From Candidatus Fermentibacterales bacterium (GTDB lineage: Bacteria; Fermentibacterota; Fermentibacteria; Fermentibacterales; JAFGKQ01): a DNA stretch of 14,076 nucleotides. Within the stretch, counting starts at the first letter, position 1; each line of letters begins with the position of its first letter. A program made the translations under genes and the position numbers. The DNA is taken from assembly GCA_016928495.1 (NCBI GenBank), contig JAFGKQ010000128.1, forward strand, positions 1-14,076, read 5' to 3'. The notes beneath the pieces were generated by a model. That model was not told the DNA's origin. It did no database searches and was given only the letters and a program-made list of their open reading frames with translations. This document shows, in pieces, positions 176-14,076 of this stretch.

Positions 176-664
176 ATGGATGCAAGCATAGAGCTCGTAG
201 CTCTGGAGTACCCTGAAGGATCGAACATCATCCTCGGGCAGAGCCATTTCATCAAATCCGTCGAGGATCTCTACGAGGCGGTGGCCGGTACCGTGCCCGG
301 CAGCCCCTTCGGCCTGGCGTTCTCGGAGGCCTCCGGGCCCAGGCTGGTCAGGAGCGACGGCACGGATTCCGAGCTGCAGCGTGTGGCCGAGCAGAACCTG
401 ATGAGACTCGGCTGCGGGCACAGCTTCCTGGTCGTCCTGGGCAGCGCCTATCCGATACAGGTCCTCAACGCCATCAAGGCTGTCCCGGAGGTCTGCGGCA
501 TCCACTGCGCCACCGCCAACCCGGTCTCGGTCGTGGTCGCCAGAGCCACGGGAGGCGGGGCCATACTGGGCGTGATAGACGGCGAGTCCCCGCTGGCGGT
601 CGAATCGGACGGCGACAGGGACAGCAGGATCGAGCTGCTCAAGAGGTTCGGCTACAAGCGCTGA
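176..664 (+). CDS. Adenosine-specific kinase family protein (DUF355 / Adenosine_kin)
   Basis: This 162-residue protein matches the small adenosine-specific kinase family along its whole length. Recognisable conserved stretches are 'PEGSNIILGQSHFIKSVEDL' (residues 13-32), 'FGLAFSEASGPRLVRSDG', 'LNAIKAVPEVCGIHCATANP' and 'GGGAILGVIDGESPL', with an '..RFGYKR' C-terminus. The family is best known from archaea and thermophilic bacteria. It is named from structural and nucleotide-binding work on archaeal members; its physiological role is not well established, so the name should be read as a family label. It is a single soluble domain with no signal peptide or membrane segment. The ATG at 176 matches the usual family start, but the Shine-Dalgarno is poor (AGGA about 13 bases upstream). 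It lies just after rpoN and converges on the epimerase gene. Confidence 0.88.
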   Translation: MDASIELVALEYPEGSNIILGQSHFIKSVEDLYEAVAGTVPGSPFGLAFSEASGPRLVRSDGTDSELQRVAEQNLMRLGCGHSFLVVLGSAYPIQVLNAIKAVPEVCGIHCATANPVSVVVARATGGGAILGVIDGESPLAVESDGDRDSRIELLKRFGYKR

Positions 665-701: not shown

Positions 702-730
702 GGCCACTCCGCTCACGGAGCCGCCTGGCC
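702..730. other. Inverted repeat at the convergent gene ends, possible terminator-like hairpin
   Basis: GGCCA (702-706) can pair with TGGCC (726-730), and inside it CTCCG (707-711) pairs with CGGAG (716-720) around a CTCA loop, leaving a five-base bulge on one side. It sits between the plus-strand gene ending at 664 and the minus-strand gene whose stop is at 713-715, and it covers that stop. There is no T-run on either strand, so it is not a classical intrinsic terminator. It may simply reduce read-through, or it may be chance in GC-rich DNA. Confidence 0.25.
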
Positions 731-1648
731 TGTCAGGGTCCGCCTCAGCGCCTCCTCGATCGGCGTTGCCGGTGACCATCCGCTGAGAGCCACGGTCTCG
801 CCCTTGTCCAGGTCCCAGCCCTCGGCAAGGAACTCCAGGCTCTTGTAGCGATCGAAGACGGGCGGCTTCCGGGAGAACAGGCCCGCCAGCTCCGACAGGC
901 GGCCCGCGAGCCTGACCAGTGCCCCCGGGACCGGGACGGTCAGGATCTTCCGCCCTGCTGCCCGCTCCAGCAGTCCCGCCAGCTCCCTCCAGCCGAAAGG
1001 CTCGGGGTATGCGGGAACGAGGGTCTTCGCGGTCACCGCCTCCTCGCGCGACGGCAGGCTGGCGAGCATCTCCGCGAGGTCCTCCACGTAGACCAGCGGT
1101 ACTCTGGCGCTCCTGCTTGCCGGCAGGAAGAGCAGCCCGGCCCTGGCCATCCCGAACAGCGGCGCTGTGGCCCGGTCACCCGGGCCGAAGACCGCCGGGG
1201 GACGCACGATGACCCATCTCTCGAACTTCCGCAGGCACATCTCGGCCAGCAGCTTGCTTCTTCCGTAGGGCCCAACGGGGACCCCTCCGGAGCCGCTGGG
1301 CCCGGCGGCGGATAGGCTGGACACGAGGACGAAGAGGGCCTCGGGAGCCGCCCTCGACCTGGCCTCCAGCAGGCAGCGCGTCGTCGCGACGTTCGCCCTG
1401 TCGAGCTCGTCCTGGCTCCTGCCGCTGGTCGCCCCGGCGGCATGGTAGATCGCGTCCACTCCCTGCATGCAGTCCGCGAGCTCGTCGACGTCGAGGAAAT
1501 CCAGCCTCCTGACGTCAAGGCTGCACGAGAGCTCCGGGAGCCTGGACGCTGGCCTGCACACCGGGACCAGATCGTGGCCGTCCCTCCGGAGACGGTCTGC
1601 CAGGTGGCTCCCGACGAACCCTGATACGCCCGTAAGGAAAGCTCTCAT
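713..1648 (-). CDS. NAD(P)-dependent epimerase/reductase (extended SDR); candidate 3-ketosphinganine reductase (CerR-like)
   Basis: This 311-residue protein is an extended short-chain dehydrogenase/reductase. The N-terminal Rossmann motif is 'TGVSGFVGSHL' (T6 to L16; glycines 7, 10, 13). It is followed by 'YHAAG' (68-72), a serine cluster 'LVSSLSAAG' (108-116) and the catalytic pair in 'YGRSK' (Y128, K132). 'VRPPAVFGPGD' (148-158) and 'PLVYVEDLAEML' (184-195) are typical of epimerase-like members. The start at 1648 is preferred because ACGGAG (1660-1655) lies six bases upstream; the ATG at 1654 abuts that sequence and would be poorly spaced. The gene is divergent from the serine palmitoyltransferase-like gene. 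In Caulobacter, ketosphinganine is reduced by an enzyme of this epimerase type (CerR), so that role is inferred from context. A sugar-nucleotide or flavanol-type substrate cannot be excluded. Confidence 0.88.
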   Translation of the reverse strand: MRAFLTGVSGFVGSHLADRLRRDGHDLVPVCRPASRLPELSCSLDVRRLDFLDVDELADCMQGVDAIYHAAGATSGRSQDELDRANVATTRCLLEARSRAAPEALFVLVSSLSAAGPSGSGGVPVGPYGRSKLLAEMCLRKFERWVIVRPPAVFGPGDRATAPLFGMARAGLLFLPASRSARVPLVYVEDLAEMLASLPSREEAVTAKTLVPAYPEPFGWRELAGLLERAAGRKILTVPVPGALVRLAGRLSELAGLFSRKPPVFDRYKSLEFLAEGWDLDKGETVALSGWSPATPIEEALRRTLTGQAAP

Positions 1649-1654
1649 GCGCAT

Positions 1655-1660
1655 CTCCGT
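1655..1660 (-). promoter_or_regulatory. Ribosome binding site that sets the epimerase start
   Basis: Read on the minus strand this is ACGGAG. It lies six bases before the ATG at 1648-1646 and directly abuts the upstream ATG at 1654-1652. The spacing favours the downstream ATG, which removes two residues from the longest open frame. Confidence 0.6.
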
Positions 1661-1688
1661 TGACTTGACAGCCCGCCAGAATTAGAAT
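1660..1688 (+). promoter_or_regulatory. Sigma-70-type promoter for the serine palmitoyltransferase operon
   Basis: TTGACT (1660-1665) and TAGAAT (1683-1688) are separated by exactly 17 bases. Each hexamer differs from consensus at one position. Transcription would start near 1695, giving a leader of about 45 bases before the ATG at 1740. The stretch after the -35 is locally AT-rich against a GC-rich background, which supports a real promoter. The -35 touches the ribosome binding site of the divergent epimerase gene. Confidence 0.6.
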
Positions 1689-1697
1689 CCAAGCCCA

Positions 1698-1726
1698 ACG
1701 TTACGACACCCGGTACACACTCGCAA
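1698..1726 (-). promoter_or_regulatory. Weak candidate promoter for the epimerase gene
   Basis: On the minus strand TTGCGA (1726-1721) and TAACGT (1703-1698) are 17 bases apart, placing a start near 1691 and a leader of about 43 bases. The matches to consensus are only moderate. It is back-to-back with, but does not overlap, the stronger plus-strand promoter, so the two genes could be co-regulated by one protein bound between them. Confidence 0.3.
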
Positions 1727-1739
1727 GACAGGTTCAGCG

Positions 1740-2921
1740 ATGGACATCTTCCAGAAGTGCCTGGATTTCGACAGGGCCACCAGAGTGCGTGAGCAGGGCC
1801 TCTACCCCTATTTCATCCCGTTGAGCGGCCAGGTCGGCCCGGAGATGGAGATAGACGGCCGCAAGATCATCATGCTCGGCTCCAACAACTACCTCGGCCT
1901 GACCAACCACCCCACGGTCAAGCAGAAGGCGATCATGGCCCTCGAGAAGTATGGGACGGGCTGCACCGGCTCACGCTTCCTCAACGGCACGCTCGATCTG
2001 CACGTGATGCTGGAGGAGAAGCTGGCGGAGTTCCTCAAGAGCGAGAGGGTGCTGACCTTCAGCACGGGCTTCCAGACCAACCTGGGCGTGATATCGACGC
2101 TGGCCCACAAGGGCGACACCATCTTCGTCGACAGGTCCGACCACGCCTCCATCATAGACGGCACCAGGCTGAGCCACGCCAGGGTCTTCAAGTTCAGGCA
2201 CAACGACACCGGCCACCTCAGGCACCTCCTCGAGCGTGAGCGCGAGATGGGCGCCCTCCTGGTGGTCGACGGCGTCTTCAGCATGGAGGGGGATCTGGCC
2301 AACCTGCCCGAGATCCTGCCGCTGGCGCACGAGTTCAGGGCCAGGGTGATCGTGGACGACGCTCACGGAGTCGGGGTCATGGGCGAGCATGGCCGGGGCA
2401 CGGCGGAGCACTTCGGCGTAGAGGACCAGGTCGACATCCTGGTCGGCACCTTCAGCAAGTCCTTCGCCAGCATCGGCGGCTTCGCCTCGGGACCGGCCAA
2501 GGTCATGGACTACATCCAGCACGCTTCGAGGCCGCTCATCTTCTCTGCCAGCATGCCGCCGCCGGCTGTCGCGACCGTTCTCGCGGCACTGGAGGTCATC
2601 CAGGAGGAGCCGGAGAGGCTCGCCAACGTCCACAGGGCTGCCGACAGGGCCCGAGAGGGACTCCGGCAGCTCGGCTACGACATAGGGGACTCGTGTGCCG
2701 CTCCCATCATCCCGGTCATCATAGGCGACGACATGCTCACGTTCCTTACCTGGAAGAGGCTGTTCGAGGAGGGTGTGTTCACGAACGCGGTGATCAGCCC
2801 GGCGGTCGCTCCCGACAGGGCCATGCTCCGGACCAGCTACATGTCGACGCATACCGAGGAGTGCATCGACAGGGCTCTGGCGGCCTTCGAGAAGGTGGGC
2901 TCAGAGCTGGATCTGATCTGA
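1740..2921 (+). CDS. spt: Serine palmitoyltransferase-like PLP-dependent alpha-oxoamine synthase
   Basis: This 393-residue enzyme belongs to the alpha-oxoamine synthase family, which condenses an amino acid with an acyl thioester and releases CO2. Full-family features are visible: 'GSNNYLGLTNHP' (47-58), 'GTGCTGSRFLNGT' (72-84), 'DHASIIDG' with H135 stacking on the cofactor, 'VDDAHGVG' with D207, and 'GTFSKSFASIGGF' with the PLP lysine K240. Details favour serine palmitoyltransferase of the Bacteroides type over KBL or BioF, especially 'LNGTLDLH', 'FSTGFQTNLGVIS' and 'RPLIFSASMPP'. The expected reaction is serine plus palmitoyl thioester to 3-ketosphinganine. No membrane segment is seen. It lies behind a good promoter and is 13 bases from the acyltransferase gene. 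A 2-amino-3-ketobutyrate ligase or 8-amino-7-oxononanoate synthase is the main alternative, but no biotin or threonine-catabolism gene is nearby. Confidence 0.85.
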   Translation: MDIFQKCLDFDRATRVREQGLYPYFIPLSGQVGPEMEIDGRKIIMLGSNNYLGLTNHPTVKQKAIMALEKYGTGCTGSRFLNGTLDLHVMLEEKLAEFLKSERVLTFSTGFQTNLGVISTLAHKGDTIFVDRSDHASIIDGTRLSHARVFKFRHNDTGHLRHLLEREREMGALLVVDGVFSMEGDLANLPEILPLAHEFRARVIVDDAHGVGVMGEHGRGTAEHFGVEDQVDILVGTFSKSFASIGGFASGPAKVMDYIQHASRPLIFSASMPPPAVATVLAALEVIQEEPERLANVHRAADRAREGLRQLGYDIGDSCAAPIIPVIIGDDMLTFLTWKRLFEEGVFTNAVISPAVAPDRAMLRTSYMSTHTEECIDRALAAFEKVGSELDLI

Positions 2922-2934
2922 GCGGCATCCGGCC

Positions 2935-4074
2935 ATGGCCAGCGGACAGGTCAGGATCGAGCCGGTCTCCGGCAGATCGGGCATAGACGAGTTCATCGAC
3001 CTCCAGTTCCGCCTCTACCGCGACGATCCTCTCTGGGTGGAGCCGCTGAAGCACCCCCTCAGGAAGCTGCTCACTCCGGGGCAGCACCCCTTCTTCGAGC
3101 ACGCCGAGGTCCAGCACTTCATGGCGCGCGATTCCTCCGGGTCCGCCGTCGGCAGGGTGTCCGCCGTGGTCAACCGTGCCCACAACGAGTACCACTCCGA
3201 CAGCACCGGCTTCTTCGGCTTCTTGGAGGGCGTCCGTGACCGGGAGGTCTTCGCCGGCCTTCTGGATGCCGCGGCCGAGTGGGTCGGCGCAAGGGGAATG
3301 GACAGCCTTCGGGGCCCCGTCAACTACTCGACCAACGAGGAGACAGGGCTGCTCGTGAAGGGCTTCGACAGCAGCCCGGTGGTCATGATGACCTACAATC
3401 CCCGGTGGTACGCGGAGATGCTCGAGCAGGCCGGGATGACGAAGGCCGCCGACCTCCTGGCCTATCGGGTGGACCGGGATACGCTGAGGTCGGAGAGGTT
3501 CGGGAGGATAGCGAAGCTGGTCTCGAAGCGCTCGGGAGCCGTGTGCAGGCCCATGGACATGAGGCACTTCCGGGAAGAGGTCGCGATCATCCGCAGCATC
3601 TACAACGAGTGCTGGAAGCACAACTGGGGCTTCGTCCCGATGACCGATCGCGAGTTCGACCAGATGTCCAGAGAGCTGAGGACCGTGCTGATCCCTGACT
3701 TCGCCCCTATCGTGGAAGTCGCCGGAGAGCCGGTTGCCTTCGCTGCGGCCGTGGCCGACGCCAACCAGGCCGTAAGGGGTTCCGGGGGAAGCATGCTCAG
3801 GGCGCTGTTGCGTCTCAAGGTCCCACCCTTCAGAGTCAGGCCCGACGGGATGAGGGTGCTGCTCCTGGGAGTGCGGGAGTCCCACAGGCGAAGCGGCCTG
3901 GAGTGCCTGCTCATCGACCGGATAGTCGGAGCAGGTCTGGGCAGGGGCTACGACTGGGCGGAGCTCTCCTGGGTTCTCGAGCAGAACACGGCGATGAGGA
4001 GCATCCTGGAGAACGACCTCGGAGCAGTCCCCTACAAGACCTACAGGATCTACGAGAGACCGATCCGCAGCTGA
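2935..4074 (+). CDS. GNAT-fold N-acyltransferase; candidate bacterial ceramide synthase (bCerS-like)
   Basis: This is a 379-residue protein with a conserved N-terminal half and a GNAT acyl-CoA-binding C-terminal half. The N-terminal half shows 'DDPLWVEPLK' (30-39), 'HNEYHSDSTGFFGFLEG' (83-99) and 'GPVNYSTNEETGLLVKGF' (127-144). The GNAT half has the donor-binding region 'LLGVRESHRRSGLECLL' (310-326) and a final 'ELSWVLEQNTAMRSI' to 'YKTYRIYER' segment. It is soluble by eye. The length, about twice a simple GNAT, suggests two related folds. Its start is 13 bases after the serine palmitoyltransferase-like stop, so the two are probably one transcript. Caulobacter ceramide synthase bCerS is a GNAT-superfamily acyltransferase, and the pairing with an spt-like gene makes N-acylation of a sphingoid base the best guess. 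The substrate cannot be read from the sequence; lysine, peptide or other amine acylation remain possible. Confidence 0.8.
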   Translation: MASGQVRIEPVSGRSGIDEFIDLQFRLYRDDPLWVEPLKHPLRKLLTPGQHPFFEHAEVQHFMARDSSGSAVGRVSAVVNRAHNEYHSDSTGFFGFLEGVRDREVFAGLLDAAAEWVGARGMDSLRGPVNYSTNEETGLLVKGFDSSPVVMMTYNPRWYAEMLEQAGMTKAADLLAYRVDRDTLRSERFGRIAKLVSKRSGAVCRPMDMRHFREEVAIIRSIYNECWKHNWGFVPMTDREFDQMSRELRTVLIPDFAPIVEVAGEPVAFAAAVADANQAVRGSGGSMLRALLRLKVPPFRVRPDGMRVLLLGVRESHRRSGLECLLIDRIVGAGLGRGYDWAELSWVLEQNTAMRSILENDLGAVPYKTYRIYERPIRS

Positions 4075-4089
4075 TGAAGGTGTTCCGGC

Positions 4090-5883
4090 ATGACCACTGA
4101 AGAGCTCAAGTCACTCTATCTGGATTTCTTCGGGCAGAAGGGCCACGCCGTGATCCCGGGCGCCTCCCTGATTCCGGAGAACGACCCCACGGTCCTCTTC
4201 ACGACGGCCGGCATGCACCCCCTGGTTCCGTTCCTGATGGGCGAGACGCATCCCGCCGGGAAGCGCCTGGTCAACTGCCAGAAGTGCATAAGGACCGGAG
4301 ACATCGGCGAGGTAGGTGACGCTACCCATCTGACATTCTTCGAGATGCTCGGGAACTGGTCTCTCGGGGACTACTTCAAGCGCGAGGCCATCGGCTGGAG
4401 CTTCGAGTTCCTCACGGACAGGAGATGGCTGGGCTTCGACAGCGGCCAGCTCCACGTGACCGTCTTCGCGGGAGACGATCTGGCCCCCCCTGACGAGGAG
4501 TCCGCAGCTCTGTGGGAGGAGCTTGGCATCCCCGGGGAGCGAATATACTACCTCGACAGGAGCGAGAACTGGTGGGGGCCGGCGGGGGCCACCGGGCCAT
4601 GCGGCCCAGATACGGAGATGTTCGTCGATACCGGTGCCCCGGCATGCGGGGAGGGGTGCCGGCCCGGCTGTGGTTGCGGCAAGTACTTCGAGGTCTGGAA
4701 CGATGTCTTCCTCTCGTTCAACAGGCTTCCCGACGGCACCTATGCACCTCTGGACAGGGTCTGCGTGGACACCGGGATGGGCGTGGAGAGGACGGTTGCC
4801 ATGATGAACGGCTACCGCTCCATCTACCAGGTGCCCGTCCTCGACACCCTGGCCGGCTTCGTGAGGAAGCTCTGCGGCGCCGGGGACAGGCCGGGCCCCG
4901 ATGCCCTCCGGTCCATCCGCGTAGTCGCGGACCATATCAGGACCTCGGTGCAGATACTGGGGGACGACCTGGGGGTGCCGCCGTCCAACCTGGACCAGGG
5001 CTACGTTCTGCGCAGGCTCATAAGGGTCGCGATCAGGCACGCCAGGAAGCTGGGCATCGACGATCCATTCACCGAGGCCATGGCCCGGCTTGCCATCGAG
5101 ACAGAGAAGAGCAGCTACCCGGAGCTTCAGCGCAACAGGGAGAGGATCCTGACGGAGATCGCCAGGGAGGAGGAGCAGTTCGGAAAGACGCTGAGGGCAG
5201 GCCTCAGGGAGTACGAGAAGCTGCTTCCGGGCCTTCTGAGGAACCCCGCGAGGATCATCCCGGGCAGGATCGCGTTCAGGCTGCATGATACCTACGGGTT
5301 CCCGGTCGAGTTCACCGTGGGCCTCGCGGCGGAGCACGGCCTGAGGGTCGACATGGATGGCTATCAGGCCGCCTTCGACAAGCACCGGGAGCTCTCCCGC
5401 AAGGGAGCCGAGCGCAAGTTCAGCGGGGGGCTGGCAGATCACAGCGCCATCGTGACCAGGCTCCACACCGCTACGCACCTGCTGCACCAGGCTCTCAGGA
5501 TGGTGCTGGGCGAGCATGTGGAGCAGAGGGGTAGCAATATCACTCACGAGAGGCTGCGCTTCGACTTCTCGCATCCCGAGAAGCTCACCGAGGAGCAGGT
5601 TCGTGAGGTAGAGGCGATAGTGAACCGCGTGATCGACGCCGACCTGCCCGTGGCCTGCGAGGAGATGACGGCCGAGGAGGCCGGCCGGAGGGGCGCCATC
5701 GGCCTTTTCGGGGACAGGTACGGGGACAGGGTTAAGGTCTACACCGTCGGTGAGTTCTCATGCGAGATCTGCGGCGGGCCCCACGTCACGCGGACCGGGG
5801 AGCTGGGGAGGTTCAGGATAGTGTCCGAGAAGAGCTCTTCCAGCGGTATCAGGAGGATAAGGGCGGTTCTGGAGGCAACATGA
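4090..5883 (+). CDS. alaS: Alanyl-tRNA synthetase, compact form lacking the C-terminal domain
   Basis: The protein charges tRNA-Ala. It is 597 residues, against about 870-880 for the usual bacterial enzyme. The catalytic core is intact: 'TTAGMHPLVPF' (38-48), 'FFEMLGNWSLGDYFK' (83-97, motif 2) and 'VDTGMGVERTVAMMNG' (226-241, motif 3). The tRNA-recognition helices follow to about residue 440. The editing site is present as HTATH (H459, H463) and CGGPH (C561, H565). The beta-barrel stretch with the TPFYAESGGQ-type motif that normally precedes the HxxxH is absent: 'KFSGGLADHS' runs straight into it. The DHHA1/C-Ala region after the editing domain is also absent. An inserted cysteine cluster (C186, C190, C194, C196) looks like a metal site. 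It starts 15 bases after the acyltransferase stop; its own stop overlaps the next start as ATGA. Confidence 0.95.
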   Translation: MTTEELKSLYLDFFGQKGHAVIPGASLIPENDPTVLFTTAGMHPLVPFLMGETHPAGKRLVNCQKCIRTGDIGEVGDATHLTFFEMLGNWSLGDYFKREAIGWSFEFLTDRRWLGFDSGQLHVTVFAGDDLAPPDEESAALWEELGIPGERIYYLDRSENWWGPAGATGPCGPDTEMFVDTGAPACGEGCRPGCGCGKYFEVWNDVFLSFNRLPDGTYAPLDRVCVDTGMGVERTVAMMNGYRSIYQVPVLDTLAGFVRKLCGAGDRPGPDALRSIRVVADHIRTSVQILGDDLGVPPSNLDQGYVLRRLIRVAIRHARKLGIDDPFTEAMARLAIETEKSSYPELQRNRERILTEIAREEEQFGKTLRAGLREYEKLLPGLLRNPARIIPGRIAFRLHDTYGFPVEFTVGLAAEHGLRVDMDGYQAAFDKHRELSRKGAERKFSGGLADHSAIVTRLHTATHLLHQALRMVLGEHVEQRGSNITHERLRFDFSHPEKLTEEQVREVEAIVNRVIDADLPVACEEMTAEEAGRRGAIGLFGDRYGDRVKVYTVGEFSCEICGGPHVTRTGELGRFRIVSEKSSSSGIRRIRAVLEAT

Positions 5884-12896: not shown

Positions 12897-14076
12897 GTGG
12901 CTCCGGACAGCCCTGTCATCCATGATCTGCTCGACGAGGCGGCCGCGAGGATCCCTGACGCGGTCGCCCTCGTCGACGACGACTACGAGATCACTTTCTC
13001 CGACTGGAGGAGGGTCTCCCTTCATCTGGCCAAGTCGCTTCAGAGCATGGGGGTCCACAAGGGAGACATCGTAGGGGCCTACCTCGGCAAGACCCTGCTG
13101 CTCCCGTGCCTGTTCACTGCAGTGTCCAGGCTGGGGGCCCAGTTCATGGCCCTGGTTCCGGGATGGCCCGAGCAGACCTACTCCCGCACCTTCGGCAGAT
13201 GGCCCAGGAGGTTCGTAGTGGTCGAGTCCGACAGGTGCCGGGACGTCTACTGCGACACCGAGTGGTCCAGCCTGACCAGGGCCTCTGTCCTCGATGGCTC
13301 GGAGACTCCCTACAGCCTGCCTGAGGTATCGCCGGAGGACGTGGTCTACCTGAACATTACGTCCGCATCCACGGGCCAGCCCAAGGTGGCTTCGACGACT
13401 CACCGCCATCTCATTGCCAACACCAGGGGGGTGTGCGAGGCGTTGGAGATGGCCGCGGATGACGTCCACATGTCGCTCTTCGGAGTCATCGGCCATCCAC
13501 ACGAGCTTTTCGCCAGGGGCCTCTTCCTGGGTGGGAAGACAGTTCTCACCGAGAGCCCGTACCCCCGCAGCGTTATCCAGCGGGTATCCGCACAGAGGGT
13601 CACCGCGCTCATGGGCCTGCCTCCTCAGCTCGAGGGGATATCGCGTCTCTACCGGAGAGCCGACGCCGACCTGAGTAGCCTCCGCTTCGCCGAAGCCGGC
13701 GGCATGCACTTCTCGCAGTTGCTGTGCGAGCGCTTCCAGGAGAGGACGGGGGTGCCCATCCGTTCTGTCTGGGGCAGCACGGAGACCTCCGGCGTGGTTC
13801 TCATCGGTGATCCCGGCAGGACCGGGTTCGACAGGGTCGTGCCCGGCTACGAGGTCGAGATCAGGAAGACGGAGGAGGTAGTCGCGGGCTCGGAGCATGG
13901 CGTTTCGCCCGAGACCGGAGAGCTCTGGGTCTCCGGCGAGGGCGTCGTTGCGGGCTATCACGGGGACAGGGCCGAGACGGCCGAGAGCTTCCGCGAGGGC
14001 TGGTACCGGACGGGCGACATATTCAAGCGCGAGGGAGGCAGGCTCGTGTTCCTGGGGCGCAGGGGCGGGCTGATCA
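12897..14076 (+). CDS. AMP-forming acyl-CoA/acyl-ACP synthetase (ANL superfamily), 3' end outside the window
   Basis: This open frame runs off the window after 393 codons, so the C-terminal subdomain with its catalytic lysine is missing. It activates a carboxylate as acyl-AMP and passes it to a thiol. Visible core motifs are a P-loop 'ITSASTGQPK' (154-163, canonical TSGTTGxPK), 'WGSTETSG' (292-299), 'GELWVSGEGVVAGYHGD' (341-357), 'REGWYRTGD' (366-374) and 'FLGRRGG' (385-391). The GTG at 12897 is chosen because 'VIHDLLDEAAARIPDAVALV' is a typical N-terminus, but no good Shine-Dalgarno precedes it. A CTG at 12888 would sit eight bases after a GGAG that overlaps the SPFH gene end. It lies 14 bases after the SPFH stop. 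The substrate is unknown; a fatty acid for lipid synthesis is possible. Confidence 0.85.
   Translation, partial: MAPDSPVIHDLLDEAAARIPDAVALVDDDYEITFSDWRRVSLHLAKSLQSMGVHKGDIVGAYLGKTLLLPCLFTAVSRLGAQFMALVPGWPEQTYSRTFGRWPRRFVVVESDRCRDVYCDTEWSSLTRASVLDGSETPYSLPEVSPEDVVYLNITSASTGQPKVASTTHRHLIANTRGVCEALEMAADDVHMSLFGVIGHPHELFARGLFLGGKTVLTESPYPRSVIQRVSAQRVTALMGLPPQLEGISRLYRRADADLSSLRFAEAGGMHFSQLLCERFQERTGVPIRSVWGSTETSGVVLIGDPGRTGFDRVVPGYEVEIRKTEEVVAGSEHGVSPETGELWVSGEGVVAGYHGDRAETAESFREGWYRTGDIFKREGGRLVFLGRRGGLI

Follow-up and report, generated by a model that had tools for sequence, protein, structure and literature searches.

Does the region 713-4074 of a 14,076-nucleotide stretch of DNA from a Candidatus Fermentibacterales bacterium (contig JAFGKQ010000128.1 of assembly GCA_016928495.1; the whole stretch is referred to as the window) encode the synthesis of ceramide? 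Sphingolipids were long considered rare in bacteria. An earlier sequence-only reading of the window proposed that three adjacent genes encode the three enzyme classes of bacterial ceramide synthesis (Spt, bCerS, CerR). The region is highly likely to be a bacterial ceramide cassette, spt-bcerS with a divergent cerR, which is predicted to yield (dihydro)ceramide. The three genes are given below.

713-1654, minus strand: CerR-type reductase, 313 amino acids; extended short-chain dehydrogenase with a NAD-dependent epimerase fold; assigned by Pfam, by its match to the CerR of Escherichia coli BL21 and by linkage.
1740-2921, plus strand: Spt, 393 amino acids; pyridoxal phosphate (PLP)-dependent alpha-oxoamine synthase; assigned by NCBIfam, PDB match, tree and residues.
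2935-4074, plus strand: bCerS/YghO-type tandem GNAT N-acyltransferase of double length, 379 amino acids; assigned by its match to YghO, by an AlphaFold model and by linkage.

The open reading frames lie where the sequence-only reading had placed them, and 13 bases separate the Spt stop codon from the GNAT gene. Only the choice of the reductase start differs (1654 instead of 1648): the gene has these two in-frame ATGs and ends at 713 on the minus strand.

The evidence consists of homology, an Spt-type active site, a predicted tandem GNAT fold, linkage and phylum-wide conservation. By analogy with the work on Caulobacter, from which the substrates, the sequence of the acylation and reduction steps, and the nature and destination of the product are inferred, Spt would join L-serine and a long-chain acyl thioester into 3-ketosphinganine. 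The bCerS-like tandem GNAT enzyme would then attach another fatty acyl chain at the amino group, and CerR would reduce the 3-keto group to give (dihydro)ceramide, destined for the outer membrane. This order, acylation then reduction, follows the model of PMC11087976 and is disputed by another group; the Fermentibacterota orthologs, which are diverged from the Caulobacter enzymes, offer a test set for this dispute.

The host belongs to Candidatus Fermentibacterota: its acyltransferase is closest to those of Candidatus Fermentibacteraceae (52% identity) and Candidatus Sabulitectum (48%), both of that phylum. Its genome is a 2.3 Mb draft (completeness 81%, contamination 0.4%), and the GC content of the window contig is 65-66%. 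Genes for Spt, bCerS and CerR are each found in all 24 high-quality genomes of the phylum. Linkage was counted in the 34 phylum genomes that have a cassette-type Spt match. The bCerS gene lies 3' of spt on the same contig in every one of them, with a spacing of 13 to 31 bases as judged from match coordinates. In 33 of these genomes, cerR adjoins spt in divergent orientation; in the exception (G004), the contig begins inside spt. Proteins of these recurring cassettes share 35-69% identity. Since the same arrangement recurs across the phylum, the adjacency of the three genes is not due to chance.

The best NCBIfam family of the product of 1740-2921 is SerpalmtaseCFB (NF047600, Bacteroidetes Spt; 505 bits), the next family scoring about 100 bits lower. 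Its best PDB match is the Spt of Sphingobacterium (3a2b; E=3e-120, 405 bits), and it shares 43% identity with the E. coli BL21 ortholog. A maximum-likelihood tree of 31 alpha-oxoamine synthases places it in a clade with all the Spt references used (E. coli BL21, Sphingomonas, Sphingobacterium, Parabacteroides, Prevotella; support 98/96). KBL and BioF of E. coli, the KBL/BioF enzyme of Thermus (8s1y), and the KBL proteins of the phylum itself all fall outside this clade. Within the tree, the Fermentibacterota Spt joins those of Gemmatimonas and Rubrobacter radiotolerans (90/91). The residues that hold PLP and serine were described for the Sphingobacterium enzyme, whose numbering is used here (PMC10196870); N52, G80, S81, H138, D210, H213, T241, K244 and A274 are all kept in the window protein. 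The identification as a serine palmitoyltransferase is thus supported, and the enzyme would use serine.

The product of 2935-4074 aligns with YghO of E. coli BL21 over its full length (36% identity, 382 columns, E=1e-78), and the two proteins are reciprocal best matches, YghO finding it as its best match in the host genome. The GNAT protein matches no Pfam or NCBIfam family; in the absence of a family model, profile annotation would overlook bCerS. Sequence searches of solved structures with this protein or its alignment gave no significant match. Its AlphaFold2 model (predicted local distance difference test, pLDDT, 87.3) matches tandem GNAT proteins in a fold search (top match 7q3a, Z 24.9, 3.8 A over 307 residues); long-chain-acyl N-myristoyltransferases are also found among the matches (Z 16-17). 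In a tree of the GNAT family, the window protein falls in a clade of mostly spt-linked members, from which a second paralogue of the phylum is split off at 100/100. The assignment as a bCerS/YghO-type N-acyltransferase with a predicted tandem GNAT fold is supported by the sequence comparison and the model.

The second tandem-GNAT paralogue (25-31% identity to bCerS; for example, positions 273-1403 of contig C323 of G000, locus L088, and L085:8760-9875) is found in most Fermentibacterota genomes outside genus g7, with no spt beside it. In genome G039, it lies directly 3' of a KdsA-like gene, within a cluster for Kdo and lipid A. This paralogue may acylate an outer-membrane lipid.

The product of 713-1654 matches the Pfam Epimerase family (1.8e-23). 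It carries TGVSGFVG near the N-terminus (nucleotide-binding) and YGRSK at residue 130 (YxxxK). Its identity to the BL21 CerR candidate is 26-27% (E=1e-27). A search of the host genome with BL21 CerR ranks it first, with 79 bits vs 36 for the next protein.

The three family assignments made by the sequence-only reading therefore hold by profile and pairwise searches, and that of the GNAT protein also by structure: the PLP enzyme, compared with Spt, KBL and BioF, groups with Spt, and the GNAT protein is related to bCerS through full-length homology to YghO/bCerS and its tandem GNAT model. The joint pathway, which had been deduced from adjacency, now has behind it the co-occurrence and linkage of the genes in related genomes.

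Several points weigh against the ceramide assignment. The 505 bits of Spt are below the curated cut-off of SerpalmtaseCFB (640), so the protein is assigned to the wider Spt clade and not to the Bacteroidetes equivalog. The references for the bCerS, CerR and Spt comparisons are the E. coli BL21 proteins named in PMC9386255 (ECD_02850, yghO, acyltransferase; ECD_02852, reductase; ECD_02854, Spt). YghO was named the BL21 sphingolipid N-acyltransferase through homology with Caulobacter CC_1154 (PMC9386255), and BL21 YghO and CerR are thus themselves candidates by homology with Caulobacter genes. CerR is the weakest of the three family calls. Its identity to the BL21 protein is low, and its tree is poorly resolved, one outgroup row being a bad reading frame; the call consequently rests on reciprocal best match and linkage. 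The CerR of Caulobacter is reported to be periplasmic (PMC11087976) and associated with the inner membrane. No signal peptide is visible by eye in the window CerR, whose N-terminus opens directly with the nucleotide-binding fold; that of BL21 CerR begins likewise.

The alternative that survives best keeps Spt and bCerS as named and has the ceramide reductase encoded elsewhere than in 713-1654. The low identity of CerR speaks for it, as do the Elusimicrobia and Zixibacteria cassettes, which have no CerR within stretches of up to 13 kb; but in the host genome BL21 CerR has no better match than the product of 713-1654, whose gene keeps its divergent place beside spt across the phylum, so that this alternative is improbable. 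Less probable still is a cassette making mainly alanine-derived 1-deoxyceramides, or another ketone or amide lipid, instead of serine-derived ceramide. Spt enzymes are stated to take alanine and glycine weakly (PMC10196870), Ding et al. frame the pathway as (1-deoxy)ceramide synthesis (PMC11334938), and the next gene encodes an alanyl-tRNA synthetase. However, the serine-contacting Asn52, Gly80 and Ser81 are as in serine-using Spt, and the adjacent alaS is a housekeeping gene with little bearing on the substrate.

Identification of the PLP enzyme as KBL or BioF, with a role in threonine breakdown or biotin synthesis and with unrelated neighbours, is suggested by the general similarity of alpha-oxoamine synthases (KBL and BioF models score 300-380 bits on the window Spt), but this identity is rejected as hardly credible by the tree, by the residues (where Spt and the window protein have Ala, KBL has Asn and BioF Thr), by a separate KBL of the same genome that lies beside an acetate-CoA ligase and scores above the KBL cut-off (586 vs 493 bits), and by the lack of tdh or bio genes among the annotated genes of the window. 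Equally hard to credit is a sulfonolipid (capnine type) cassette whose first enzyme uses cysteate: sulfonolipid enzymes have the same fold as Spt, and at another locus (L023) a bCerS-like gene adjoins one for a SulA-like protein that carries the diagnostic Lys, but Lys281 of SulA, a sulfonolipid enzyme, is Ala in Spt (PMC9304779) and is likewise Ala in the window protein and in all six other Fermentibacterota sequences tested, which rejects this reading, and SulA (7u7h) scores 245 bits vs 405 for Spt 3a2b. The L023 pair is an observation in its own right: in Co_bin.8 (2388-4461), the Lys-type Spt-like enzyme is encoded directly 5' of the bCerS-like gene, and the two are possibly a sulfonolipid cassette with a bCerS-type N-acyltransferase.

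For the ceramide cassette, the acyl donor of Spt has to be considered. Rhodobacteria supply Spt through a dedicated acyl carrier protein (ACP) and the acyl-ACP synthetase AasR (PMC9386255). The cassette contains no acyl carrier gene, and a search of the window genome with BL21 AasR gave only weak partial matches and no clear ortholog, the genome being 81% complete. Given these two absences, and bearing in mind the incompleteness of the genome, the donor is probably acyl-coenzyme A or a general acyl-ACP. The AMP-binding ligase gene at the end of the window (12897-14075) was considered as a local AasR, which is not supported: its product shares only 26% identity with BL21 AasR, and the matches elsewhere in the genome are weak and partial.

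The ceramide cluster of Caulobacter and E. coli BL21 (spt, acpR, cerR, aasR, bcerS/yghO) has the same three core families and the same clustering. The Fermentibacterota cassette differs by the absence of acpR and, in the window genome, of a clear aasR ortholog, and its Spt is by score closer to the type of Bacteroidetes than to that of Rhodobacteria. Spt of Bacteroidota (Sphingobacterium 3a2b, Parabacteroides, Prevotella) are the top-scoring characterised Spt and share the active-site residues of the window protein, which nevertheless lies on a separate branch and below the NCBIfam equivalog cut-off. Unlike the Fermentibacterota loci, the Parabacteroides record has no bCerS or CerR annotated within 3 kb of spt.

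The same gene triple is present in Gemmatimonas, Rubrobacter, Streptomyces and E. coli BL21. In Gemmatimonas (L005) and on plasmid 1 of Rubrobacter radiotolerans (L098), the three genes lie in a row on one strand, whereas cerR is divergent in Fermentibacterota; the Rubrobacter and Streptomyces triples are consecutive genes carried by plasmids. The genes spt and bcerS are also adjacent in loci of Elusimicrobia, Zixibacteria and GN15 (L006, L011, L016, L026); no CerR was found at these loci within stretches of up to 13 kb, and their reductase must be located elsewhere or be different. On the Rubrobacter plasmid (L098:3716-9308), spt-bcerS-cerR is followed by a gene of the LTA synthase family, which suggests a phosphoglycerol head group on the actinobacterial ceramide. 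The Streptomyces plasmid (L100:3763-8289) carries Spt-like, GNAT, epimerase and condensation-domain genes in a row, perhaps for a modified ceramide.

Fermentibacterota thus very probably make sphingolipids via the known bacterial route, judging from their genes. According to the text of Ding et al. 2024 (PMC11334938), Spt-like proteins are found in Black Sea metagenome-assembled genomes of 38 phyla (40 phyla known in all), and their genes often lie beside those of bCerS and CerR; as described there, that survey uses the same type of evidence and the same gene-linkage criterion as this analysis. Fermentibacterota are not named in its main text, and a literature search found no paper pairing Fermentibacter with sphingolipid. 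The extension of the range of bacterial sphingolipid makers announced by the sequence-only reading is therefore partial: a phylum unnamed in that main text is added, but the pathway, the linkage and an occurrence in about 40 phyla had been published before, which makes Fermentibacterota a further phylum for a known pathway and not a new system. The present analysis contributes a cassette in Candidatus Fermentibacterota that is complete, occurs phylum-wide and is conserved in position. That an uncultured phylum keeps this core cassette at a fixed position throughout, near outer-membrane genes in some genomes and with lipid A genes retained, would make Fermentibacterota a predictable source of ceramide in their habitats.

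The other features of the window are given below.

176-664, plus strand: adenosine-specific kinase gene.
1660-1688, plus strand: promoter-like site TTGACT-17-TAGAAT in the divergent gap between cerR and spt, found by consensus scan.
4090-5883, plus strand: alanyl-tRNA synthetase, short form of 597 amino acids, next gene 3' of bCerS (NCBIfam PRK01584, 900 bits).
12897-14075, plus strand: AMP-binding acyl ligase, running off the end of the window; a homologue is found at the same relative place in G013.

In genome G006, the cassette and the adenosine kinase gene are followed by genes for sigma-54, an ABC ATPase in the place of LptB, an LptA-like protein, LptC, a lipid A acyltransferase and Kdo synthesis; G003 and G013 have homologous gene clusters in this position. 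A run of this make-up (L082:10244-17999; rpoN, LptB-like ATPase, lptA-like, lptC, lipid A acyltransferase and Kdo genes) thus borders the cassette in several relatives, and lptG/lptF homologues likewise come after the spt cluster of E. coli BL21. The rpoN-Lpt-Kdo run is convergent with cerR and is therefore a neighbour, not part of the same operon. LpxC is present in 23 of the 24 high-quality phylum genomes and LpxB in all 24. LpxC was not found in G013 (98% complete), which keeps LpxB, so that an assembly gap is the more likely cause. Replacement of lipopolysaccharide by sphingolipids is rejected in view of this retention; with lipid A genes conserved phylum-wide, ceramide would probably occur in addition to lipid A. 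That ceramide would belong to the core outer-membrane lipids throughout the phylum, alongside lipid A and handled by the Lpt/Kdo machinery, whose operon in several genomes is separated from the cassette by about one gene, is a tentative and rather unlikely proposal.

In each of the nine further Fermentibacterota loci examined, the alanyl-tRNA synthetase gene lies 3' of bCerS; it is probably a conserved neighbour outside the ceramide pathway. The genes 3' of it in the window are unrelated. The promoter-like site has 10 of 12 consensus matches and is a sequence match alone; two such sites are found in the region vs 0.5 expected.

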